Position numbers and translations under genes: made by a program
The notes under the pieces: generated by a model
Databases searched by the model: none
What the model was told of the DNA's origin: nothing
The model's input: the letters and a program-made list of their open reading frames with translations, nothing else
From: a virus
Virus record (IMG/VR): IMGVR_UViG_3300021960_000356
Span: 1 to 29,248 of that record
DNA length: 29,248 nucleotides
Reading direction: 5' to 3' (one strand)
Part shown: piece by piece, positions 1,818-25,300 of the stretch
Position numbering within the stretch: position 1 is the first letter of the stretch
Layout: every line of letters starts with the position of its first letter

Positions 1818-1849
1818 TGGTTACCCTGTTTATATAAACAGGGAAACCA
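1818..1849. promoter_or_regulatory. 32-nt palindrome TGGTTACCCTGTTTA (left copy)
   Basis: The 16-nt arms of TGGTTACCCTGTTTAT pair with one mismatch; the centre is TATATA. The right copy (28568-28599) has perfect 15-nt arms around TG. Downstream of the module promoter it could be a repressor site or a leader hairpin. There is no T-tract, so it does not look like an intrinsic terminator. Confidence 0.6.
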
Positions 1850-1852
1850 GTA

Positions 1853-1858
1853 TATAAT
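1853..1858 (+). promoter_or_regulatory. Candidate -10 (TATAAT) upstream of the gene at 1898
   Basis: TATAAT lies within AGTATATAATAAAG, right after the palindrome and 40 nt before the ATG at 1898. There is no good -35, and the element is absent from the right module. It could give a second, palindrome-independent start for the structural arm. Confidence 0.35.
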
Positions 1859-1897
1859 AAAGACTTTTTAATAGGGGGGTTCGGAAATCTAAACTTT

Positions 1898-2374
1898 ATG
1901 AGTAAAAAGTCCAACCAAGACATGAAATCCGTCAACGGGCTACCCCAGTATCTGGTTACCCCTGACGATTACGTTTATTCTAAAACGTCTTGCCGGAAGG
2001 TGAAGAGACGTTGGTATAACCAGAAGTGGCACTCCCCTATACGATATAACGGGAAAACCTACGTTGTGGGCCATGACGACCTGATATCACCTCTGTTTGA
2101 TGTGACGAAGCTCGAAGAGGCTCCCGTAGACCCGAGGAGCTATACGGAGATGCGAGAGATACCCGGATTCCCAGCATACGCTGTCAGCAAAGAGGGCGTA
2201 GCGTGGCGAATGAAACCATACAAAGGAAACCGCAGAGGCCGTAAAACCCCTTTTCAGTTGAAGGAAAGGATGCATCACGGGAGTACCTACTACAAGCTCA
2301 CGAACGAAGACGGCAAAACGTCTATCAAACGGGCTGTTAGAATACTCGAAGAAACGTGGGGAGAACTGCCTTAA
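1898..2374 (+). CDS. NUMOD4-like repeat protein (158 aa), first gene of the structural arm
   Basis: Two successive stretches resemble the NUMOD4 motif found next to HNH homing nucleases. Residues about 16-40 contain LPQYLVTPDDYVYSK, and residues about 87-107 contain REIPGFPAYAVSKEGVAWRM, the form I/PGF-x-x-Y-x-V-S-x-x-G. The C-terminus (KRAVRILEETWGELP) resembles the segment that usually follows the motif. No HNH or GIY-YIG catalytic core is visible, so the protein is more likely a DNA-binding relic or regulator than an active nuclease. It is the first gene after the left module and precedes the portal gene by 38 bp. No Shine-Dalgarno sequence is close to the ATG; an AGGGGGG run lies too far upstream, over 20 nt away. 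Confidence 0.6.
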   Translation: MSKKSNQDMKSVNGLPQYLVTPDDYVYSKTSCRKVKRRWYNQKWHSPIRYNGKTYVVGHDDLISPLFDVTKLEEAPVDPRSYTEMREIPGFPAYAVSKEGVAWRMKPYKGNRRGRKTPFQLKERMHHGSTYYKLTNEDGKTSIKRAVRILEETWGELP

Positions 2375-2412
2375 ATTTTTGACAAGACAGAAAACTTAAA
2401 CTACCCTCCGTG

Positions 2413-4653
2413 ATGCTAAACAAAAAGCCCACCGAGGTTGACGCTCTAGATCTGGAGAATCTGGACGACAAGGGTAAACCTGTCGAGACTCGTCTCCGAG
2501 ATGTTAAAAGCGCGTTAGCGATTTACGCCACCTTGAGAAAGGCTGATGAGAAGTCGGCGGTGAACCGCGCTCGCATTGACGCGATGTTTGACGGAGCCGC
2601 CCCGTATAACGACGATAAACTACGAGCGAGCGGTCAGTCTCTTAAAACCAACCTCAACTTTGGTGAAGCCCAGCGTTTTCTAGACATCTCGTTGTCTGCT
2701 TATGTTGACCTGTATTCTAGCTTAGAGACCCTCGTTGAAGTCAAAGGGACTCTTGGTGAGGCTTCCGAGGTTCAGGAGATGGAAAGCATCGTAGCCGAAG
2801 AACTGACCCACATGATGCGTTCTTGGCCCGAGTTTCACAGTAGCTATCTGCGGCTTTGCACGACTTTCATCAAACACGGTGTGGGTGTTGCTTATTTCGA
2901 CTCACCCGAAGACTGGCGGTTCCGAGTCGGTGGTTTTACTGACTTGCTCATCCCACGACAGACACCCTCTTCTGAGGATGCCGTAGACATTGCTGTTGGT
3001 CGTCGGGACTACCTAGTTCATGAGTTATACCGCTTCATCAAGAATGAGAAAGCGGCTAAGACTGTTGGTTGGAACGTCGATGAAGTTAAGCGCGTCATCA
3101 AGAAGAACGCGAAGACGACAGGCCGAGGCCACATAGACAGCGGGTCCATGTATACCGACTACGAAGCGATTCAGTCGGAACTTAAAAACAACGACCTCTA
3201 CACAGGTATTCAAAACCCCAAAGTTCCTGTCCTCCACTTCTGGGTTCGCGAGATGGACGGAACAGTCAGCCACTACATCTCCGCTGAAGATAACCCTAAA
3301 GATTTCCTATACAAAAAGGTTAGCAGGTTCGATGCCCCCGAGCAAGCCTATGTCATGTTCACCTATGGGGTGGGAAGCAACGGAACCTACCACAGCATTA
3401 GGGGTCTTGGTCAGAGGATCTTCTCCCACATCCAGACCTCTAATCGCTTGCGGTGCCAGCTAGTGGATGGAGCTATGCTTGGGTCTGCTGTAATGATCCA
3501 GCCTGAGAGCCAGAGAGCTTTGGATGAATTGCAGTTCACTTACTATGGAGCCTATGCCATCCTAAGCCCCGGCGTTAACATCGTAGAGAAAGCCATCCCC
3601 AACCTTGGCAATGCTGTTATCCCAGCCCTTAACGATCTTACCACGCAGCTACAGCAGAACACAGATACCGTGTCCACTTATGGTCCGGGCCAGAGTTCAC
3701 CATACAGGAATCAGATGCAAGTCGCTTCTGACATCGACATCAACACAAGGCTCTCTGGTGCTTCGTTGAACTTGTTCTACTCATCTTGGACCCGACTCAT
3801 GCGGGAGATCGTCAGGCGGGTCGCTACAAGCAAGAAGAATGACCCTGCTGTTAAAGACTTTTTCCGCCGATGCACTGAGCGTGGTGTTGATGAGAAGTTT
3901 GTTCGAAGCCTCGACCTTACCAAAACACGAGCAGTCCGCTCTGTAGGTAACGGATCTAAGGCGGGACGACTCGTCGCACTCCGTGAACTTCAAGGAATGT
4001 ATGGGCGACTCGACGAAGTAGGTCGCCGGAACTTAGATCGAGATGTCATTTCTTCGAGTGTGGGACACGAGATTGCTAACCGCTACCTCCCAGCGTCTAC
4101 TGAACCGAGGACGACCGTTGATAACAAGATCGCGTTTCTTGAAAACCAGCAACTTAACCAAGGCTCTCCTGTTCCTGTTTTGTCTACCGAGATGCATGGA
4201 ACTCACTTGCAAACCCACGTTCCAGCCCTCGCTCAGTTGATCGAGGCTCTTAACACAGGTCAAGCCGACCCAATGCAAGCGATTAACATCCTACAGGCTT
4301 TTTACCAACACATCTCAGAGACGCTCCAGTTCGCCGCCGCTGACCCGTCGCTAGAGGCTGATGTGGCCTCTGCCAATCAGGTCATGCAGTTTGCCGAAGA
4401 GGCTATCAACAACACGATGAAGTCAATCCAGAAGCAGCAGCGAGAAGCGGCGCAGCAGGAAGGTGACCCACAAGAAGGCGACCAAGGACTGACCCCCGGA
4501 CAAATGAAGATGCAACAAGCGCAGATTCAGATGCAAATTGCTCAAATGAAAGCCGAGCAAGAGATGGAATTAAAGCAGAAAAAGTTTGACCAAGAGCAAG
4601 CTATGCGCGATGCAGAGGCAGCCCTAAAGTTCAGGGAAGAAAATCCTATTTAA
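2413..4653 (+). CDS. Portal protein (746 aa)
   Basis: This is the dodecameric ring at the capsid vertex through which DNA enters and leaves. The call rests on length (P22-class portals are about 700-750 aa), on position directly before an acidic scaffold and the capsid gene, and on overall character: a helical N-terminus, a mixed central domain with aromatic-rich strands (about residues 270-345, including VPVLHFWVREMDG), and a long C-terminal helical barrel rich in Gln. From about residue 675 the sequence is an almost uninterrupted Q/M/K/E helix (QMKMQQAQIQMQIAQMKAEQ), as in barrel-bearing portals. The codon before the ATG is GTG (2410); the ATG at 2413 is preferred. There is no Shine-Dalgarno sequence. 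The next gene starts 4 bp after the stop. Confidence 0.85.
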   Translation: MLNKKPTEVDALDLENLDDKGKPVETRLRDVKSALAIYATLRKADEKSAVNRARIDAMFDGAAPYNDDKLRASGQSLKTNLNFGEAQRFLDISLSAYVDLYSSLETLVEVKGTLGEASEVQEMESIVAEELTHMMRSWPEFHSSYLRLCTTFIKHGVGVAYFDSPEDWRFRVGGFTDLLIPRQTPSSEDAVDIAVGRRDYLVHELYRFIKNEKAAKTVGWNVDEVKRVIKKNAKTTGRGHIDSGSMYTDYEAIQSELKNNDLYTGIQNPKVPVLHFWVREMDGTVSHYISAEDNPKDFLYKKVSRFDAPEQAYVMFTYGVGSNGTYHSIRGLGQRIFSHIQTSNRLRCQLVDGAMLGSAVMIQPESQRALDELQFTYYGAYAILSPGVNIVEKAIPNLGNAVIPALNDLTTQLQQNTDTVSTYGPGQSSPYRNQMQVASDIDINTRLSGASLNLFYSSWTRLMREIVRRVATSKKNDPAVKDFFRRCTERGVDEKFVRSLDLTKTRAVRSVGNGSKAGRLVALRELQGMYGRLDEVGRRNLDRDVISSSVGHEIANRYLPASTEPRTTVDNKIAFLENQQLNQGSPVPVLSTEMHGTHLQTHVPALAQLIEALNTGQADPMQAINILQAFYQHISETLQFAAADPSLEADVASANQVMQFAEEAINNTMKSIQKQQREAAQQEGDPQEGDQGLTPGQMKMQQAQIQMQIAQMKAEQEMELKQKKFDQEQAMRDAEAALKFREENPI

Positions 4654-9870: not shown

Positions 9871-10608
9871 ATGAGAAAGATAAAATTTGCAGGAACACGA
9901 AGAAGCGGTAACCACGCGGTTCTGGCGTGGATAGCTGAACGATTACCGGAGGGCAACACCTTCTTTATAAACGATGTACGTTTCGGCTCGAATTACTCCG
10001 ACAAGAAAAAGTCAGACCGGCTCCCAACTAAAAGGATATGTCGGAGAGGAAAAGCGAGCCTGATCCTAACTAGCTATGAAGACAGGAGTTTACCATTAAT
10101 CAACAACCACGAGCCATTAGTTGATGTGTTACACACTAGTGAAAAGAAGGTTCTAATTTTAAGAGACGCGTTCAATAATTTCGCTAGTAGGTTGAGATAC
10201 CGAAAGAATGGAAAACGTTTTAAGGAAGATGACCCGACAAATGGGCCACCCGATTCGTCTAAGATATGGGTGGAGTATGCTAAAGAGTATATAGGGGTGA
10301 CCGAAGCACTAAAGGGCGACGTAGTTAAGGTTAACTACAATTCTTGGTTTTCCGATCCAGACTACAGAGTATTAGTAGCGAACTCTCTGGGGTTGGCCCC
10401 TTCACCAGAGCCATTTGAAAGAGTGCCCGGATATGGGTTTGGGAGTTCATTTAGTAATACATGCAGAGACGGTAGGGCATCAAAAATGCGTGTCCTAGAC
10501 AGGTGGAAATTGTTTTCCAAAGACCCCGATTACCTTGAATATTTTAATGAAGAAGTAATAGAGCTGTCTAGAGAAATATTCCCCGAGATACGAGGGCCGT
10601 TCGATTGA
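9871..10608 (+). CDS. Sulfotransferase-family protein (245 aa)
   Basis: Transfers a sulfuryl group from PAPS to an acceptor such as a glycan. The N-terminus has the 5'-phosphosulfate-binding loop (AGTRRSGNHAVLAWI, residues about 7-21), and residues about 95-108 contain ILRDAFNNFASRL, the 3'-phosphate-binding type segment (R-D-x-x-x). A C-terminal basic region (TCRDGRASKMRVLDRWK) completes the fold's usual layout. It lies between virion genes and just before the first polyserine gene, with 36 bp before its start. A phage sulfotransferase could modify host surface sugars or virion glycans; the acceptor is unknown. Its codons are more A/T-ending than those of the structural genes, hinting at acquisition. 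Confidence 0.75.
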   Translation: MRKIKFAGTRRSGNHAVLAWIAERLPEGNTFFINDVRFGSNYSDKKKSDRLPTKRICRRGKASLILTSYEDRSLPLINNHEPLVDVLHTSEKKVLILRDAFNNFASRLRYRKNGKRFKEDDPTNGPPDSSKIWVEYAKEYIGVTEALKGDVVKVNYNSWFSDPDYRVLVANSLGLAPSPEPFERVPGYGFGSSFSNTCRDGRASKMRVLDRWKLFSKDPDYLEYFNEEVIELSREIFPEIRGPFD

Positions 10609-16890: not shown

Positions 16891-19054
16891 CTTCGATGAC
16901 ATTCTGGGCAATGTCGTAGCATTCAGCCACTCCAACAGTCCAGATCTTGCCACCCCCGCTCCCTATAGACTTAACGGGCCGTAGCTTTTTGTTACTCTTG
17001 TGGGCTTCTTCCATAGCAGCCATGCCTCGACGGACGAATTCTAGATTAGAAGACTGACCAACGTGTCTACCGTTGTTATACTCTTGGACGAGGACTTGGA
17101 ACTGAGTCACAGTCCCTTTCCACTCTACTGCGCTGCTCGCGGATCTGTGGTGGATCGCGAAGAACTCTACAAGTTCTGCGATAGAGGATCTACTTGAGTT
17201 GTCATACGCTGCGCTTGCGATGGCTTCATCAATGTAACTCTCGATACCAAACCGCGAATAGACCTCGATGTCTTGGGGCACTTTCCAGTCGAGGATGTAT
17301 CGACAGAAGTGAGGTAACTCCTTATCTATGGTCTTCTCCACTACGTGGTTTGGTGGGAACTTGCTAGTTGCGGAGTCGCTGATAAGTAACGCCAACAGCT
17401 TATCGCGGTTCGATGAATCGAGGGCGGGGATTACAGACAGGCTGTTCGCGTCCATATTCAGAGACATTATAACTCTGCCCGTCCAAGGAATGTTCACAGC
17501 ATCGACATATTTAGCGTGATACTCGATTCTCGGGTTAGCCACAGCCCTCTTGATTAGTTCAGTGGCCTTCCTTTGGTCTGAGAAGTTAGCGGCTGACACA
17601 GTGTCATCAATTACCCACGCGGGGAAACGAGCCAAGTCCTTGTTAAATTTAGTTTGTCCCGACAAATAATCCGAAGCGTCTGCGAGACCTCCGACCATAG
17701 CCGAGATCACCTTGTTCGATAGGAGTGACTTCCCTTTGTTGGTTGGTCCAACAAGCAAGAGTGCTTGCCCCTGACAGAACCGCCTGTCCAAAACCGCGTT
17801 GTAGAACCTCTTGAGCCACGCATACAAATAGTCTGTAGCGGGTCTAGGGTTACCAGAAGAATCTGTTGCGGTGGAAAACATCTGAGACAACCACTCGTTG
17901 ATGAAGGGCCATAGAGCAGGGTCGCCATCCTCGTCGGGTTCAACGGGGCTAATTGAAGCACTGTTAAGGATTCGATGTCCGTTGTGTATGACGATTCTGT
18001 CCTTCGAGAAGACTACAGGAGCAATCTCGTCTACACGGTTCTGGTTTGAGATGGCTAAGATTGCATTGTCCATCTCTGAGAGGTTCTGCCCTTTCTTAGG
18101 TTTGGTCGAAAAGTTTGCGGCCCTCAACTCTAGTATCAGTTGGTCTTTAGGTATAGATACTGACATCCCATTCAGGACTTTGAAGAATGACTTGCCGTTG
18201 AACCAGTATTCCCCGAGGAGGTTGCCCATTTTCTTTTGCTCGTATTTCTCTACGAACTTTCGGCCAAGTATCTCACGCCATGTGAAGAAGCCTTTACCTC
18301 CCCTATCAGAATAACAGATAACTCCATCATCCGAGATCTGACACCCTTCTCGATCTACGCCGTCGTTGATCCAGAACAGAGGTCCGCGAGAACCCACCTC
18401 GAAGTCACCTAACCACCGTCCGGGGAATGAGTTCTCAACCTCTTTGGCGATCTCTTCCATCGGTATAGTTGTGTCTGTCGATTCTGGGGGCCGATTACTG
18501 GCCGCTTTCATCAGCGCAGCCCTAACAGTGTCACTACTTACATCACCTCCTGTCAAGATCCAGTCGCTACCTATTTCAAAATACTGGTTAGGTTTATAGC
18601 TGGCTTCATCAAACCCTGCGATGGCTTTGGGGGCTTTGATCACGCGAGCCACTTCTTTTATGAATGGGTCATATAGGGACGGGTCGATTGGCAAGGTATC
18701 CTCGAACTTCCAGATAAAACGAGCGTAGCCACTGAATGTTTTGCTCACCCAAGTCGGTGCGATGGTGAAGGCGGCGTTGGCGATAGCCTCGATACTCGAC
18801 CAGTCTAAAGGGGCGTCGTAGTCAGCAATAAAACCAGAACACTTATTAACGGGGTTACTGTTCGATATTCTCTGCGACGGTGCGTCACCTTCGCAATAAG
18901 AAATGAATAGATGGTCCGTATTTGCATTCGCACACCAGTCTCTGAACTCAGCCTTTGAGTCAAACTTAGGTTTCGCTTGTGCATTTTTAGCTTTCTTCTC
19001 TGGGTTGCTGAGTTTCTTGGCTTCGTTGCTTCTAAGGTTTCTTATGTATCTCAT
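16880..19054 (-). CDS. Primase-helicase (archaeo-eukaryotic-type primase plus superfamily 3 helicase) (724 aa)
   Basis: Makes primers and unwinds the replication fork. The N-terminal half looks like an AEP-type primase: FIADYDA (Asp78 and Asp80), SGYARFIWKFE (about 109-119) and FDEASYKPNQYFEIGSDW (about 148-165). The C-terminal half is a D5-like SF3 helicase: Walker A GPTNKGKS (436-443), Walker B AWVIDDT (479-485) and sensor SLNMD (531-535), followed by a long C-terminal domain with a winged-helix-like finish. I chose the ATG at 19054 because it overlaps the polymerase stop as TAATG; an upstream in-frame start (19111) would add 19 residues inside the polymerase gene. It is the last gene of the minus-strand replication arm. 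Confidence 0.8.
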   Translation of the reverse strand: MRYIRNLRSNEAKKLSNPEKKAKNAQAKPKFDSKAEFRDWCANANTDHLFISYCEGDAPSQRISNSNPVNKCSGFIADYDAPLDWSSIEAIANAAFTIAPTWVSKTFSGYARFIWKFEDTLPIDPSLYDPFIKEVARVIKAPKAIAGFDEASYKPNQYFEIGSDWILTGGDVSSDTVRAALMKAASNRPPESTDTTIPMEEIAKEVENSFPGRWLGDFEVGSRGPLFWINDGVDREGCQISDDGVICYSDRGGKGFFTWREILGRKFVEKYEQKKMGNLLGEYWFNGKSFFKVLNGMSVSIPKDQLILELRAANFSTKPKKGQNLSEMDNAILAISNQNRVDEIAPVVFSKDRIVIHNGHRILNSASISPVEPDEDGDPALWPFINEWLSQMFSTATDSSGNPRPATDYLYAWLKRFYNAVLDRRFCQGQALLLVGPTNKGKSLLSNKVISAMVGGLADASDYLSGQTKFNKDLARFPAWVIDDTVSAANFSDQRKATELIKRAVANPRIEYHAKYVDAVNIPWTGRVIMSLNMDANSLSVIPALDSSNRDKLLALLISDSATSKFPPNHVVEKTIDKELPHFCRYILDWKVPQDIEVYSRFGIESYIDEAIASAAYDNSSRSSIAELVEFFAIHHRSASSAVEWKGTVTQFQVLVQEYNNGRHVGQSSNLEFVRRGMAAMEEAHKSNKKLRPVKSIGSGGGKIWTVGVAECYDIAQNVIEATI

Positions 19055-20832
19055 TATTTTTCGTATTGGTCTAAAACTTTCCCTTTGGCTTCTAATGGCA
19101 GGTCGATCCAATCTGGGGCCGTGGACATTATCTCTGTCGTCCTTTTCAAAATGTCATCTGCGTCACTCTTGTCGGCTTCCAAGACGACTTCGTCGTGGAC
19201 ATGGAAGAGGATCTTAAATCCTTCTTCGTTCAGTCGCAACAAATGGTGTGAGAAAATATCTCTAGCTAGAGCTTGAGAAGCGTTCTCCGCTAGGACGCCG
19301 CCCCAGACCCTAGCCTTAGAACGTGTCGCGCCATACAGTCGATCAACAACGCAGTGTCTTCTCCCGTTAGAGTCTATATTAAAAGAGATATTAGAATACT
19401 TCAGGGATCTACCAGAAGGGAGGGTGAGATCCCATTTCCGCTTCGACCCAACTGTCTGGAACGCAGTATACAGAGAATTGTCATATTGCCCCCACAGACC
19501 CACAACTTTGGGTAGCTTGGCTCGATAGAGGTTAACGGCCTCGAAAGATTCCGATAGGCTCATTCCCGCGAAGTCCGCGAACTTTTTAGCTCCAGCACCA
19601 TAACCACACCCGAGGACAATTGCTTTGACCTTGTGCCTCAACTGGGGGTCTTCCTCTTCGAGGACTCCCTTAGCTCGATCCCATAACCCAAAGCGGACCG
19701 CAAAGGTTTCATAAATGTCGTCACTCTGTGAAATGTCTTTAATCAACTCGTCGTCACCTGCTAGGTAAGCTAATGTTCTAACTTCAATTTGAGATAGGTC
19801 AACAGCTACTAAGGCTTTACCTTCTGGCGCACTGAATAGCGACCTAACATTGACCCCAAACATTTCCGCTCTAGGGAGGTTCTGGATGTTAAACGCCCCG
19901 CCAGACCCGCTGAATCTTCCGGTGTGCGCTCCGAAATACAGAGTCCCGATATAGCATCTCCGGTTGGCTACTGTGGAAAGACAGATCGACTCTATCTTTT
20001 TCTTAAGTGAATTTATTCTTCTCCAGTTACGCACCGCACCCACCCAAGCATACTTCTTACCATTTCTGCGGACCCATTCGTCGGCGTCGGGGTTGTTGAT
20101 CGCGAGGCTTGCTGGTGGCTCAATACCTTCTTCTCGGCACTTGTTGTTAAAAGCCTTGCGGCTGAGAATGGATGAGTCTTCTGACCACGGCACGGCTGAC
20201 TCAAGATCGAAGAGTTGCTCGTTCAGAGTTTCTTTAGCTTTCTTCAGACCAGCCACATCTACGTGAATCCCGTGCTGGAGAATAACGCGGTTCATCCTAC
20301 TAATATCGCGCTCTACTTGGGGCCACTTGTGAGAGACCTTCTCCCACAGGCGAAGACAGAGAACACTATCTTGGACAGCATAAGCCGATACTTCCTCTCG
20401 AAAATCGTCGTCCATTTCGTCCCAGTTCAAACCTTTCATGTTGTCACGGGTATCTTTTGATATGGTGATACCTAATACTTCTTCACACGAGTTTGCGAGG
20501 GATCGTCGATAACCGCAGTAAGCGACCATGTCCGCAGTGCAGTGCCATTCCTTTGGTATGGGGCCATCCCACCAACCGTTCTCTAGACCTTCAAGGTAGA
20601 GCAACTCGTCGAACGAGGCATTGTGCGACAAGGCTATATTGCCTTCGAGAAAAGACCAATCGAGGTCTTTAGGGTTACCTACAAATTCATACTTACCTTC
20701 GTCATCTTCTGCATAGACGGTAACCATGTATGGATCGAACTGTGGGTGGTTGAAGTATCCTTTCCACCCCAATTTAGTTATGCTGACCTCTTTATCGTAG
20801 TAGGTCTCAAAGTCTATGGCGAACACACGCAT
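19054..20832 (-). CDS. polA: Family A DNA polymerase (592 aa)
   Basis: The replicative polymerase with 3'-5' exonuclease. The exonuclease motifs are FAIDFETYY (with Asp and Glu), SHNASFDELL and AVQDSVLCLRLW. The polymerase motifs are A: LVAVDLSQIEVRTLAYLA; B: RHKVKAIVLGCGYG; C: FHVHDEVV. In motif B the position equivalent to E. coli Phe762 is leucine (Leu409 when numbered from the upstream GTG, Leu407 from the ATG used here). No 5'-nuclease domain is present, so it is T7-sized. I prefer the ATG at 20832, with AGGAAAA about 9 nt upstream, over the GTG at 20838. The stop overlaps the primase-helicase start. Confidence 0.92.
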   Translation of the reverse strand: MRVFAIDFETYYDKEVSITKLGWKGYFNHPQFDPYMVTVYAEDDEGKYEFVGNPKDLDWSFLEGNIALSHNASFDELLYLEGLENGWWDGPIPKEWHCTADMVAYCGYRRSLANSCEEVLGITISKDTRDNMKGLNWDEMDDDFREEVSAYAVQDSVLCLRLWEKVSHKWPQVERDISRMNRVILQHGIHVDVAGLKKAKETLNEQLFDLESAVPWSEDSSILSRKAFNNKCREEGIEPPASLAINNPDADEWVRRNGKKYAWVGAVRNWRRINSLKKKIESICLSTVANRRCYIGTLYFGAHTGRFSGSGGAFNIQNLPRAEMFGVNVRSLFSAPEGKALVAVDLSQIEVRTLAYLAGDDELIKDISQSDDIYETFAVRFGLWDRAKGVLEEEDPQLRHKVKAIVLGCGYGAGAKKFADFAGMSLSESFEAVNLYRAKLPKVVGLWGQYDNSLYTAFQTVGSKRKWDLTLPSGRSLKYSNISFNIDSNGRRHCVVDRLYGATRSKARVWGGVLAENASQALARDIFSHHLLRLNEEGFKILFHVHDEVVLEADKSDADDILKRTTEIMSTAPDWIDLPLEAKGKVLDQYEK

Positions 20833-20863
20833 ATTCACTTTTCCTAGTCTATTTTACAGGAGT

Positions 20864-20920: not shown

Positions 20921-21538
20921 TTAAGAAGAGATAGTCTGAATGAACTTCGCGATATCTTCCTTAACAGGTTCCGCCGTCGGTTTGAGAGACGGGGCATACC
21001 AACTATGCGGACCTCGCTGGAGTAGTCCGCTCTTGAAATCCCATTCGACTGAGCTAACGCTCTTGTCTGGGTTTCCTGCGGCCCAAGTCGCCAGCACCTT
21101 ATATGTCTGTCTGTATGCGTCCTTATGGACATGAATCTTCCCAAGAGCGCAGAAATCGTCACCCAAAGGGAGGGGAAATGCCGCTGGGTCAGGCTCCTCT
21201 TGGTTCGAGCGGAAGAGAAAAGTGAGTTCAGCGAACTCAATAACTTTAAACTCAGAATCTTTTCTAAGTTCTTCTGCTTCGGATTCTGTGTTAACCATAC
21301 GGGCCATTGTTTCTGAACCGTATGGTATATCTTCCTTCCACCCCTTGGTAGGGTTGATTACCGCAGCGCGGATAGGTTCATCAGCCTCGGACAGGGTGAA
21401 CTCTTTGCCAAGGACGATAGCACCTACAGGTGCATCGATGGATGAAGTCTTCTGGACTACGTTAATGCGTGGGATGTCGATGTCTGATGCGGAGATCAGA
21501 AATCCCGACTCGTTTGGTTTGCTTAGTTCTGTTGACAT
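20921..21538 (-). CDS. Putative single-stranded DNA-binding protein (205 aa)
   Basis: The family is not certain. The N-terminal half (DIDIPRINVVQKTSSIDAPVG, residues about 20-40) leads a beta-rich domain (IRAAVINPTKGWKEDIPYG), followed by an aromatic-containing segment (YKVLATWAAGNPDKSVSSVEW) and an acidic tail. The order exonuclease, this gene, DNA polymerase, primase-helicase matches many phages and prophages in which this slot holds an ssDNA-binding or annealing protein. The call rests mostly on that synteny. It ends just before the terminator at 20864-20907. Confidence 0.5.
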   Translation of the reverse strand: MSTELSKPNESGFLISASDIDIPRINVVQKTSSIDAPVGAIVLGKEFTLSEADEPIRAAVINPTKGWKEDIPYGSETMARMVNTESEAEELRKDSEFKVIEFAELTFLFRSNQEEPDPAAFPLPLGDDFCALGKIHVHKDAYRQTYKVLATWAAGNPDKSVSSVEWDFKSGLLQRGPHSWYAPSLKPTAEPVKEDIAKFIQTISS

Positions 21539-21587: not shown

Positions 21588-22448
21588 TCACGATAAGGTG
21601 AACCTCTCCTCGGACGGCGTAAGAATAGACTCCTTATCGAGGCTGTCAAGAAATTCAATTCTTTTTTCTTTCTTTGAACCCTTATCCGCCTTTTGCTCAA
21701 TCTTTTTAGTGAGCCTACCAATAGGGATACTAGCAATCTCCAGTATGTCTCCCTCGTCTACTCCGAAGTCTTGGGCCACTGAGACCAGTGCCCCGTTGTC
21801 GTTACATTTCTTGGGTGTGCCCATCGACTTGAGTCGGAGACTTGGAAGAGATACGTCTCCATCTTTCACCTTTTCTACAAGGTTCTTTCGGAAGGCGTTA
21901 GCCCAGTTGGTCACAACCTTGGCGATAGACCAAAGTGCCTCCAAGTCCTCGGGGTCATCATTACCAGATATCTCTGGGACCGAGGAACCCAACTTGTCGG
22001 CCACCTCTAAAATCATCCCGCCGAGTGCAGGACACGAATCCTCGTAGTGGCAGAACCGACAGTTTTGGTTAGGGTTCAGTTCTTCGAGTGATGGCGACCC
22101 GGACGACCACTTGGATCTGACGTAAGTGGCTCTAGCGACTACTCGGCTTACCTCTTCTCTAATCTTCGCAAGGTCGTCGCGATGAAAAGTATAGTTAGGC
22201 GTGTCGTTATAGAACGGGATGTAGAATACGAAAGTCACCTCGTCGATCTCGGGAAACTTATCAAACACGCCGATTGTATATGCTTTCGATTGCCAGTTCT
22301 CGGACGGGTGGTCAATCTGCGATACCCCCGTTTTGTAGTCGGCGAGTAAAGCTTTTTTTCCTTTTATTGTTAATCTATCGCACGTACCAAACGTGGATAG
22401 CCCGTAGTTCAGTTCTATGTTTAGACGTATCTCGTTGTAATCAGTCAT
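21588..22448 (-). CDS. PD-(D/E)XK exonuclease, C-terminal catalytic fragment (286 aa)
   Basis: RecB/Cas4-like nuclease core: GTCD (Asp24), ADYK (Asp37, Lys39) and NWQSKAY (Gln53, Tyr57), then three cysteines in the C-x2-C-x5-C pattern (Cys130, Cys133, Cys139) that in this family complete a 4Fe-4S cluster with an N-terminal Cys. That N-terminal Cys and the first helix are missing here and are found in the separate ORF at 23713-23967. The ORF starts with its own ATG, overlapping the previous stop by 8 nt; an in-frame stop lies 15 nt upstream, so it cannot be a simple readthrough extension. Likely role: end resection in recombination-linked replication. Confidence 0.8.
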   Translation of the reverse strand: MTDYNEIRLNIELNYGLSTFGTCDRLTIKGKKALLADYKTGVSQIDHPSENWQSKAYTIGVFDKFPEIDEVTFVFYIPFYNDTPNYTFHRDDLAKIREEVSRVVARATYVRSKWSSGSPSLEELNPNQNCRFCHYEDSCPALGGMILEVADKLGSSVPEISGNDDPEDLEALWSIAKVVTNWANAFRKNLVEKVKDGDVSLPSLRLKSMGTPKKCNDNGALVSVAQDFGVDEGDILEIASIPIGRLTKKIEQKADKGSKKEKRIEFLDSLDKESILTPSEERFTLS

Positions 22449-22668
22449 CGTTTTGTATTCTTAGTGTTTTTTCAAATTGTCTGACAGTGTCTTTGGTCAC
22501 CCTCTTCCATTCGCACTGGTGGAAATCTTTGCAGAATGCACCATAAAGCTGCCCCAGCGTGTCGTCATCCCAACTCTCGAAAGAGCCGGAATGCTCCCGA
22601 AGGCTCTTAATGTCCTTTAACATCATCAAGTCGAACCAGCCTCCTATATCTTCTGAGTGCTTATTCAT
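22441..22668 (-). CDS. Hypothetical protein in the exonuclease insertion (75 aa)
   Basis: A small acidic helical protein, DDDTLGQLYGAFCKDFHQ near the middle and a helical end. It starts at the ATG at 22668, overlapping the winged-helix gene's stop by 8 nt, and its stop overlaps the next start by 8 nt. A longer in-frame ORF reaches 22854 but only by crossing that gene. The family is not recognised. It is one of the genes separating the two exonuclease fragments. Confidence 0.6.
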   Translation of the reverse strand: MNKHSEDIGGWFDLMMLKDIKSLREHSGSFESWDDDTLGQLYGAFCKDFHQCEWKRVTKDTVRQFEKTLRIQNDD

Positions 22669-22915
22669 TTCTTTCCAACCACCAGATAGTGCCTTTGTTC
22701 GCGTTGTTGAACTTTTTTCTTCGTAGCCTCCTAGAGTCACGAGATATGGTAAGTTTTTCTTTAACCTCCATGAGTGTTTTCGAGATACTTGTTGTGGTGG
22801 GCCACTCCAGTTCTTTCTCAATCTCTGAGATATGCCTTTCCTTGCCGTCGGCAAGCAGCCCTAGTATCTTGTCTCGGAGCGCAGGTCTATTTCCGTATCT
22901 CATTTTTATTTCCAT
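22661..22915 (-). CDS. Winged-helix DNA-binding protein (84 aa)
   Basis: Residues about 12-50 (LRDKILGLLADGKERHISEI, then WPTTTSISKTLMEVKEKL) form a winged-helix fold: helix, loop, recognition helix, then a basic wing (SRDSRRLRRKKF). Probably a small transcriptional regulator or DNA-binding accessory. The ATG at 22915 lies in the second of two near-identical 21-nt segments. It could alternatively begin at the ATG at 22903. First of the overlapping small genes inside the exonuclease gap. Confidence 0.65.
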   Translation of the reverse strand: MEIKMRYGNRPALRDKILGLLADGKERHISEIEKELEWPTTTSISKTLMEVKEKLTISRDSRRLRRKKFNNANKGTIWWLERNE

Positions 22916-22952
22916 AATGTCCTATATATCGCAATTTTATTTTCATAATGTC
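22901..22952 (-). repeat. Duplicated 21-nt start region
   Basis: 22932-22952 and 22901-22921 match at 19 of 21 bases on the minus strand (GACATTATG followed by A-rich sequence). The downstream copy supplies the ATG of the winged-helix gene. The upstream copy has a matching ATG, so an upstream mini-ORF could exist. Confidence 0.5.
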
Positions 22953-23044
22953 TTTATATTTAGAGGTTGCTGGGCGGACATCTATGCTATCTCATTTAAA
23001 ATTGGGAGCTTTCGACCCCAATCCCCAGCTAAAATTAGTCTACT

Positions 23045-23701
23045 TCACTCAACTACGGTGAACCCCCAGCGATGCTCGACTTGGTATATATCTAGGCCGA
23101 GATCTTCATGTATCCGGTCAGGAGAATCTTTATGTTTCACTTGGTGAAGGTCATCAAGAATCAAACATCTTACGTTGTTATATTCTTTTATGGCATCCAA
23201 AGCCACTGTCATTTCTTTTTGTCCGATAGCCCCACCCGAATCTAAGCTTAGTAAGATTCTCTTATCCTTTTTGGCAAGTAGGGTTTTAGCTAACCAGTTT
23301 TGCTCTTTGGCTATGTTTTCGACTTGTATTTTCTTAACTAACTTTGCAGGTAAATCTTTTCGATCTGTCGAGTTCGCGTGGTTGAGGAAAACATGAGGCA
23401 GGTAACCTATGTTCTCTGTGGCCTTTTTGTAGGAGACTCCGTTAGACTCACAAGAGTGGACTTCTACCCCAGTAAATGCGTAGGACTTCGTAGTCCCTCT
23501 GCCCAGAAAAGTTCCCGTCTCAATGATGCAGTCTATGTTATACTTATCAACTAGAAGGCAAGCAACTTCTGATAGCCTCGGGGAATTGAGGGCCATTAAA
23601 GTATGCTTTTCTTTTTTTTCAGATTTAAGAGTGTCTACTCCTAATATAGACCTAAACGGTTTTGAAATAGTGTGATTATTTTTTAGAATATTTACTATCA
23701 T
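23045..23701 (-). CDS. Class I methyltransferase-like protein (218 aa)
   Basis: Rossmann-type features: residues about 56-72 (NIDCIIETGTFLGRGTT, motif I-like, with E-T-G-T instead of the classical Gly-rich loop), VHSCESN (post-I acidic residue, about 80-86), and RILLSLDSGGAIGQKEM (motif IV-like, about 148-164), then a region with NVRCLILDDLHQV. It resembles SAM-dependent methyltransferases found as accessory genes in phages; substrate unknown (sugar, lipid or nucleic acid). It starts 11 nt after the stop of the exonuclease N-terminal ORF and lies inside the exonuclease gap. Between it and the winged-helix gene (22916-23044) I see no gene. Confidence 0.6.
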   Translation of the reverse strand: MIVNILKNNHTISKPFRSILGVDTLKSEKKEKHTLMALNSPRLSEVACLLVDKYNIDCIIETGTFLGRGTTKSYAFTGVEVHSCESNGVSYKKATENIGYLPHVFLNHANSTDRKDLPAKLVKKIQVENIAKEQNWLAKTLLAKKDKRILLSLDSGGAIGQKEMTVALDAIKEYNNVRCLILDDLHQVKHKDSPDRIHEDLGLDIYQVEHRWGFTVVE

Positions 23702-23712
23702 AGTGTGTCTAG

Positions 23713-23967
23713 TTAATTGTTTGACTCGAAGTCTGCCATGAACTCAAACTCCATCTGGACGATCTTCTCATAGATCTCGACCTCCTCTTCATCGTGGAGC
23801 GCACTTGGGTCGTGGACCTCTAACGCTTCGTGAATCCTAGTTCCTTTCTCCGCCGCTTCAGAGGTTCCTTCTTTGCCTTTGAAGCCGGGGCAAGCCTTGA
23901 CATACTTTAGTCCGCTAGGTCCAAATTCTGCGTGGGCGCGTTCGCTGTGGTTTACGTTATCTGCCAT
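23713..23967 (-). CDS. Exonuclease N-terminal fragment, Cys-bearing (84 aa)
   Basis: Residues about 16-50 contain the N-terminal signature of DUF2800/AddB-type nucleases: a segment SGLKYVKACPGF with Cys26, then AAEKGTRIHEALE, including the conserved His of the first nuclease motif. Cys26 would be the first ligand of the 4Fe-4S cluster that the C-terminal ORF completes at Cys130/133/139. The rest is acidic and helical and ends abruptly at FESNN, where longer homologues would continue into the catalytic domain. It overlaps the helicase stop by 11 nt. Its function depends on whether it pairs with the 21588-22448 product. Confidence 0.75.
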   Translation of the reverse strand: MADNVNHSERAHAEFGPSGLKYVKACPGFKGKEGTSEAAEKGTRIHEALEVHDPSALHDEEEVEIYEKIVQMEFEFMADFESNN

Positions 23968-25300
23968 TGTTTAATGTATCTATGTTGTTGATTTTAGTTT
24001 TAAGAGATTTGATAACCGACTCTTCTATCGTCTTGTCGGCATAAAGAACTTTTTGGATCGCGTCTGATTTAGCACCGTTCCTGTGGATTCGACCCAGACA
24101 TTGAAGGTGGTCCTTGGCTACGTAGGTGGGAGATATTATGGATACACGCTGTCGTTCTCCTCGAACGTCATGTAAAGAAACGCCCGTGCCTCCTGCGGCT
24201 ATGTTGACAACGAGGGCATTCTCTTCGTCCTTCTGGAACCTGTCAATAGCTTCTTGTCTCTCTGCCGAGTTTTGTCTTCCATCGATCTTAAGACATTTAA
24301 GTCTCTCGACCAGCGCATCAACTGTCTGGGTGAAGTTAACAAACACCACTACACTCTTTCCTTCTAGGATTAAATCTTCCGCCATCTCGGCTATGTCAGG
24401 AGCTTTGAGAGACTCTGATAACTGCCTAGCCCTTAGTATGTTAACTAGAACTATGTTGTCCGAGTTTTCCACCGTGCCATTCTCGATGTAATCGGTCAAG
24501 ATGTCGGGGGTGATATCCAACTCTTTGAATGCTTTCTCGATCTGCTTTGCTTTCGTAAACTGAACAGGCTCGTAGAATACCATGTTTTCTCGGAATGAGT
24601 CAGGGAAGTCTGATGTCTTTAATCGACAAGCTCTTGCACCCTGAGACCGGAACAGAGTGTCGTGCATTTGGGTTAACTTTGGGTTTACACCGGACCTAGC
24701 TCGACAGAAGTCCCACTTGCCCCAATCGTCTAGAAAACATCCGTTCTGTTTCATCCAGCCATAGAAGGACCGTTTGGCCCCCTTGGATTTATTGAGTGCG
24801 TGAAGCCCAAGGGCGAAACCCAGACCCCGCATTTCAGTAGGGTTCTCCGCTGCCGTTGCAGACATGGCGTGAGTGGTAAAACCTTGGAGCGTTAAAGAAA
24901 TATATAGCTGGGCATTTTGTGTGTATGGCCCCTTGCACTTATGGACTTCATCCAGCAGAACGAGGGTGTTCTTTGGAATCTTCCAGTTCATAATAGACTT
25001 CCCAACTTTGGTCATGTAGGGAGTCCGCCCACCTCGTATCTTCTCGTAGTTGAGAATGAACAGAGGCTCGACACCTGTCTCGGATAGTTCCCTTTCCCAT
25101 GAGGGGACCACTGCCTTCGGGCAGAGAACCGCTACTGGACCGCCCCAGTGCTTTGCGAGGTGCGCCGCCACAACGGTCTTACCTGTTCCGGTGGCACTCG
25201 CATCCAGAGTGTTGAACCCTGAATCTATCTTACTGGTAAAAAAATCTAAGGCTTCTGATTGCTTCGGATATAATTGCTTCATTCGGCGGGATACTCTCAC
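23957..25300 (-). CDS. SNF2-like superfamily 2 DNA helicase (447 aa)
   Basis: ATP-dependent DNA translocase. In order: Q-like segment, Walker A ATGTGKT (36-42), motif Ia CPKAVVPSW, motif II DEVH (117-120), motif III SAT (147-149), motif V region VVNIAAGGTGVSLHDV (about 364-379) and motif VI QCLGRIHRNG (400-409). In phages such helicases sit with recombination nucleases and a RuvC-like enzyme, as here. The GTG at 25300 has GGAAAC upstream; an ATG at 25282 is the alternative. It overlaps the next gene by 11 nt. Confidence 0.88.
   Translation of the reverse strand: MRVSRRMKQLYPKQSEALDFFTSKIDSGFNTLDASATGTGKTVVAAHLAKHWGGPVAVLCPKAVVPSWERELSETGVEPLFILNYEKIRGGRTPYMTKVGKSIMNWKIPKNTLVLLDEVHKCKGPYTQNAQLYISLTLQGFTTHAMSATAAENPTEMRGLGFALGLHALNKSKGAKRSFYGWMKQNGCFLDDWGKWDFCRARSGVNPKLTQMHDTLFRSQGARACRLKTSDFPDSFRENMVFYEPVQFTKAKQIEKAFKELDITPDILTDYIENGTVENSDNIVLVNILRARQLSESLKAPDIAEMAEDLILEGKSVVVFVNFTQTVDALVERLKCLKIDGRQNSAERQEAIDRFQKDEENALVVNIAAGGTGVSLHDVRGERQRVSIISPTYVAKDHLQCLGRIHRNGAKSDAIQKVLYADKTIEESVIKSLKTKINNIDTLNNGR

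Follow-up and report, generated by a model that had tools for sequence, protein, structure and literature searches.

Genes in pieces have been described for NrdA of Aeromonas phage Aeh1, the gene 60/39 topoisomerase of T4, and gene 43 of Aeromonas phages 25 and 44RR, and the pieces of the split NrdA of Aeh1 and of gp43A/B of phage 25 make active enzyme (PMC2988022). Here we analyzed a viral record of 29,248 bases (the window, meaning the whole stretch of DNA), in which a predicted exonuclease is encoded by two ORFs. As in the T4-type cases, a phage replication gene appears to have been cut by insertion into two cistrons. The inserts differ, however. In the T4-type genes, homing endonucleases or an untranslated element interrupt the sequence (PMC2988022), whereas the nuclease is divided by a winged-helix gene and changing cargo. 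The split nuclease also differs from these cases in being a predicted Fe-S enzyme with Cys ligands in both pieces.

Single-chain DUF2800/phrog_69 exonucleases (PMC8093625) have the same domain, motifs, and gene neighborhood as the split enzyme. These relatives are made from one gene as one chain, whereas the split clade has two genes with others between them; a single continuous chain is a usual, not strictly defining, trait of DUF2800/phrog_69 that is absent here. In structures of Cas4/AddB/AdnA-type Fe-S nucleases, the nuclease domain is uninterrupted, within a single chain. These nucleases (9iac, 9iab, 4ic1, 6ppu, and 4ceh) match the fold of a single-chain homologue and share with the split nuclease a set of four conserved Cys, of which one lies close to the N-terminus and the other three follow the core.

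The two nuclease ORFs and their neighbors

The nuclease ORFs and the genes around them are as follows.

23957..25300, minus strand: helicase, immediately upstream of the N-half (profile match)
23713..23967, minus strand: N-half of the exonuclease, 84 aa (profile matches, motifs, alignment)
22449..23712, minus strand: gap dividing the nuclease gene, 1264 bp
21588..22448, minus strand: C-half of the exonuclease, 286 aa (profile matches, motifs, alignment)
20921..21538, minus strand: p205, downstream neighbor of the nuclease, kept in split and single-chain phages
19054..20838, minus strand: family A DNA polymerase, third gene of the module (profile match)

The sequence-only reading had placed an N-terminal and a catalytic segment of a nuclease in two ORFs; both were found at those positions, on the minus strand and 1264 bp apart, and the motifs that it listed were all present as described. 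The 84-aa ORF contains SGLKYVKACPGF with Cys26, the predicted first Fe-S ligand, and GTRIHEALE with His46 on the motif-I helix. The 286-aa ORF contains GTCD (D24), ADYK (D37 and K39), and QxxxY (Q53 and Y57; QSKAY), followed by the Cys triad C130-x2-C133-x5-C139. In profile searches, the 286-aa ORF matched DUF2800 (E 8.9e-18, profile positions 113-341 of 368, above the gathering score) and the phrog_69 exonuclease (E 4.7e-27, positions 193-435 of 501), a sequence homology far exceeding chance. The 84-aa ORF matched positions 1-66 of DUF2800 at E 0.023, under the Pfam cut-off, and positions 80-154 of phrog_69 at E 5.6e-05. The two ORFs fall on adjacent parts of the same profiles. Judged from these matches, the 84-aa ORF encodes the N-terminal part and the 286-aa ORF the C-terminal part of a single DUF2800/phrog_69 PD-(D/E)XK exonuclease.

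The upstream helicase gene overlaps the N-half: its 3' end covers the N-half ATG. On the downstream side, p205 occupies the Gp2.5/SSAP position of the duf2800-gp2.5-polA module, in which the Gp2.5/SSAP gene lies next to the DUF2800 nuclease (PMC8093625). No profile match to Gp2.5/DUF2815 was obtained for p205, and a weak Pam3_Gp34 match was seen in 7 of 15 relatives. By analogy with this module, the role of the exonuclease is likely to be DNA end processing.

Single-chain relatives and ancestry of the split

A search with the concatenated halves, which the sequence-only reading had advised as a way to find single-chain homologues over the junction, matched 249 phage records; the 60 matches listed all ran across the junction in one piece and in one frame. 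With p205 as bait, 65 viral loci were collected, and the C-half as query added more. In most loci, the nuclease was one ORF of ~370 aa directly upstream of p205. The alignment comprised 78 distinct chains (71 single and 7 split). The 71 single-chain phage homologues aligned end to end, and the joined split chains crossed the junction with no missing block relative to them. All 71 uninterrupted relatives adjoin the same p205 gene, and many adjoin the same helicase too. Just a few single-chain relatives were found in bacterial genomes, all of them metagenome-assembled. Flyfo podovirus, Morganella phage Henu15, and Brevibacillus phage Emery seemed to have natural splits too, but these were rejected as boundary effects: each phage has one DUF2800 gene, and the false splits came from two annotated features under one match.

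In the alignment, the two halves meet in a length-variable loop, flanked on one side by the motif-I helix and on the other by the strand beginning with NEI or HEI. The model of a single-chain relative (L016; mean pLDDT, 83) has a helix at 63-80, a loop at 81-87, and a strand at 88-98 at the split point, so that the cut is predicted to lie in a loop of a confidently modeled chain. This model matched structures of the Cas4 family (9iac, 9iab, and 4ic1), RecE, AdnAB, and AddAB.

The split nuclease is carried by 18 viral contigs including the window: the window with L002-L005; L006; L011/L012/L014 with L013/L015; L085; L165/L166/L168/L169/L170; and the recombinant L159/L167. Both halves were present and intact in all 18. 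Loci with a C-half and no N-half were contig-end cuts or distant phages beyond the reach of the N profile. The split chains formed one clade on the tree (support 100/98), and when the split types found later were added, a branch again separated them from the other chains (SH-aLRT 99). Because the split chains are monophyletic, the tree places the split as a single event in the ancestor of this phage group. By sequence divergence the split is old, persisting down to 52% amino-acid identity between C-halves.

Cys26, His46, D24, D37, K39, Q53, Y57, C130, C133, and C139 were identical in the 11 distinct split chains and were kept in nearly all of 122 single chains. The PD-(D/E)XK motifs H, GxxD, DxK, and QxxxY were thus unchanged in every split chain, and 11/11 had the four-Cys pattern of Cas4/AddB-type nucleases, one N-terminal and three C-terminal. 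By the Nei-Gojobori method, dN/dS over both halves ranged from 0 to 0.15. The value for the C-half was 0-0.15; that for the N-half was 0.025-0.12 where amino-acid changes exist, and is imprecise because the N-half has only 84 codons and some dS values between the window and L006 are saturated (above 1). These results indicate that both halves are under purifying selection, which for the N-half would also be expected if it had taken a new separate role.

Genes and recombination within the gap

Three genes had been reported between the halves, and ORFs of 218, 84, and 75 aa were found there, together with a recombination scar.

23045..23701, minus strand: 218-aa cargo gene (methyltransferase-like by eye)
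22970..23041, minus strand: recombination scar that directly follows the 218-aa gene, a 72-bp remnant of the other split lineage (98.6% identity with L159/L165-type sequence)
22661..22915, minus strand: small winged-helix protein (wH), 84 aa (predicted topology, presence in split contigs)
22441..22668, minus strand: p75, a 75-aa protein with no function assigned

The wH gene is the only insert gene present in every split contig and lies directly upstream of the C-half or of p75. Its product is called a winged-helix protein mainly from its predicted topology, H-H-H-E-E, which supports the earlier naming of a winged-helix gene; Foldseek matches to winged-helix proteins were weak, with none below E 0.001 in the PDB. 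A relative with 54% identity was observed at L142:4980-5222, in a phage contig with no nuclease nearby, indicating that the gene occurs beyond the nuclease locus. In L085, another winged-helix gene (L085:3818-4216) overlaps the start of the N-half; its product is Cys-rich at the N-terminus. In the window, p75 overlaps the wH gene and, by 8 nt (ATGACTGA), the start of the C-half; it is limited to part of the split clade (the window, L006, and the L011/L013 groups). The 218-aa gene was found only in the lineage of the window and its recombinant. The idea that it is methyltransferase-like gained no support from profile searches, and no match to its product was obtained in solved structures, Pfam, PHROGs, or NCBIfam; from its distribution it is a putative mobile cargo gene with no family match. 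A copy with 64% identity is present at L160:1527-2228, in the late region of contig 3300040960_002552, beside a sulfotransferase-looking ORF. The gene at 9871-10608 of the window was checked for paralogy to the 218-aa gene, with a negative outcome. No endonuclease profile matched wH, p75, or the 218-aa protein, and the predicted wH fold is not that of an endonuclease either, so that none of the three is recognized as a homing endonuclease.

Between ORF boundaries, the gap measured ~0.45 to 3.2 kb across the split contigs, and its gene content varied. The gap of L085 contains a weakly matched SprT-like protein and other ORFs. In L169, the region between the halves (1848-4420) encodes nucleoside 2-deoxyribosyltransferase, PTPS/QueD-like, and radical-SAM/QueE-like genes, which by sequence make up a 7-deazaguanine-type set. 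The gap of L165 contains a 104-aa Gly/Ser/Thr-rich repeat ORF (3844-4158), which is missing from its close relative L166. Purifying selection acts on most of the insert genes too. Because gene content differs between split lineages, the gap is read as a landing site for cargo genes. The sequence-only reading had the nuclease split by insertion of all three genes. Inserted genes do divide it; a joint arrival is not borne out, as wH is constant, p75 partial, and the 218-aa gene restricted. By this distribution the three genes did not come in as one insert, the 218-aa gene being a later addition.

The gap is also a point of exchange in contig 3300040960_002552 (L159/L167). Up to where the 218-aa gene ends, this contig is 99.5% identical to L156, a member of the window lineage; over the next 6.9 kb it is 100% identical to L166. 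Its N-half is 98% identical to that of the window and its C-half 55%. Because identity switches from L156 to L166 after the 218-aa gene, the contig is by sequence a natural hybrid, with the N-half of the window lineage and the C-half of another split lineage. The junction between the two lineages (L159:3244-3262) is also found in the window, with a deletion. An assembly chimera is an unlikely source of the L159 recombinant because this unusual junction is shared by the separately assembled window. Outside these regions, the contig is related to the window in a mosaic fashion. Furthermore, between the window and L006 the block from N-half to C-half (21588-23967) showed higher synonymous divergence than the helicase and p205 genes on its flanks, a pattern suggesting that phages may have exchanged this block.

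A proposed two-chain enzyme and its alternatives

We consider it highly probable that the gene was split once into separate cistrons whose products form one two-chain Fe-S nuclease. In this proposal, a single-chain Fe-S PD-(D/E)XK exonuclease would have been split once in the ancestor of the phage group, probably when the wH gene entered the loop that links the motif-I helix to the first beta strand of the core. The pieces would now be separate, tightly packed cistrons of one operon, probably translationally coupled. Their 84-aa and 286-aa products would bind non-covalently to give one active nuclease, as conservation and selection suggest, with a 4Fe-4S (or 2Fe-2S) cluster held, by analogy with Cas4, by Cys26 of the small chain and Cys130, Cys133, and Cys139 of the large one. 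Because Cas4-family nucleases possess a four-Cys Fe-S module (PMC5704561), the cluster is expected to have one of its ligands on the small chain and the other three on the large chain. The two-chain nuclease may work beside p205, a candidate annealing protein, and the polymerase in phage recombination and replication, and the gap would later have gathered cargo genes and recombined. Assembly of the two products around a shared cluster, already raised in the sequence-only reading, is the best reading because the gene is split, single-chain homologues span the junction, and all Cys and catalytic residues are kept; by analogy, the enzyme is best likened to those that T4-type phages encode as genes in pieces, NrdA or DNA polymerase. 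We lean, with less assurance, toward the fuller statement that this is an obligate two-chain exonuclease with one Fe-S cluster ligated across both chains, and that the gap is a recombination and cargo site at which phages swap halves and so give natural hybrids.

Gene organization bears on how the halves could be expressed. In L011-type phages, the N-half overlaps the wH gene, and p75 overlaps the C-half, by ATGA; in L159, the wH gene overlaps the C-half by ATGA. Both pieces are intact, maintained, and separately translatable, as in a gene in pieces. The tight start/stop overlaps probably reflect translational coupling of separate genes, as was suggested for mobE after nrdA (PMC2988022). The sequence-only reading had also considered removal of the insert at the RNA level, by a group I/II or other intron, to give a single-chain protein. 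The joined halves do read as a complete protein, and phages often carry introns, but such removal is now very unlikely because stop and start codons of neighbors overlap at both gap ends, the gap varies in size and content, and no intron family was matched; in addition, the insert genes are mostly under purifying selection. The intron covariance search that had been advised was made with Rfam, at a lax threshold on the window (one unrelated chance match, no intron) and at the gathering threshold on six relatives (no intron match). Split inteins and translational bypass both occur in phages, and the bypass in T4 gene 60 covers 50 nt. That either process unites the halves during or after translation is scarcely credible here: the N ORF stops where the nuclease segment stops, the C-half begins at its own ATG, and the joined chains leave no room for an intein, while the gap far exceeds the T4 bypass and carries genes.

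The remaining alternatives concern the N-half and the enzyme as a whole. The C-half contains the D / DxK / QxxxY core and the N-half is only 84 aa, so that the C-half alone might be the working nuclease and the N-half a remnant or re-purposed. We regard this as improbable, since the N-half is intact in all split contigs with low omega and with Cys26 and His46 kept, is present again in the L159 recombinant, and would supply the fourth Cys of a Cas4-family module (PMC5704561) of which the C-half has three. It is very doubtful that the nuclease is decaying and non-functional in the lineage of the window. The split itself, and the greater divergence of the N-to-C block than of its flanks between the window and L006, would fit decay; yet there are no internal stops, the catalytic residues are invariant, omega is low, the split persists down to 52% identity, and the extra divergence includes synonymous sites, as in a recombined block.

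Phage genes in pieces are already known, and no earlier report of this split was found in the open literature (most subscription journals lie outside that coverage). What is unusual here is that no homing endonuclease is recognized, the predicted ligands stand astride the cut, the split is old, and halves have been exchanged. The best studied genes in pieces are those of T4-type phages with homing endonucleases, and the split seen here was not made by a recognizable one. Annotation is likely to list such halves as two unrelated small proteins. The gap in the gene appears to have turned into a cargo site, which in one relative holds genes of a 7-deazaguanine-type pathway. The metal cluster of the cut enzyme is predicted to need both pieces, and with the natural split pair and natural hybrid one could ask if two nuclease chains can be held together by an Fe-S cluster.
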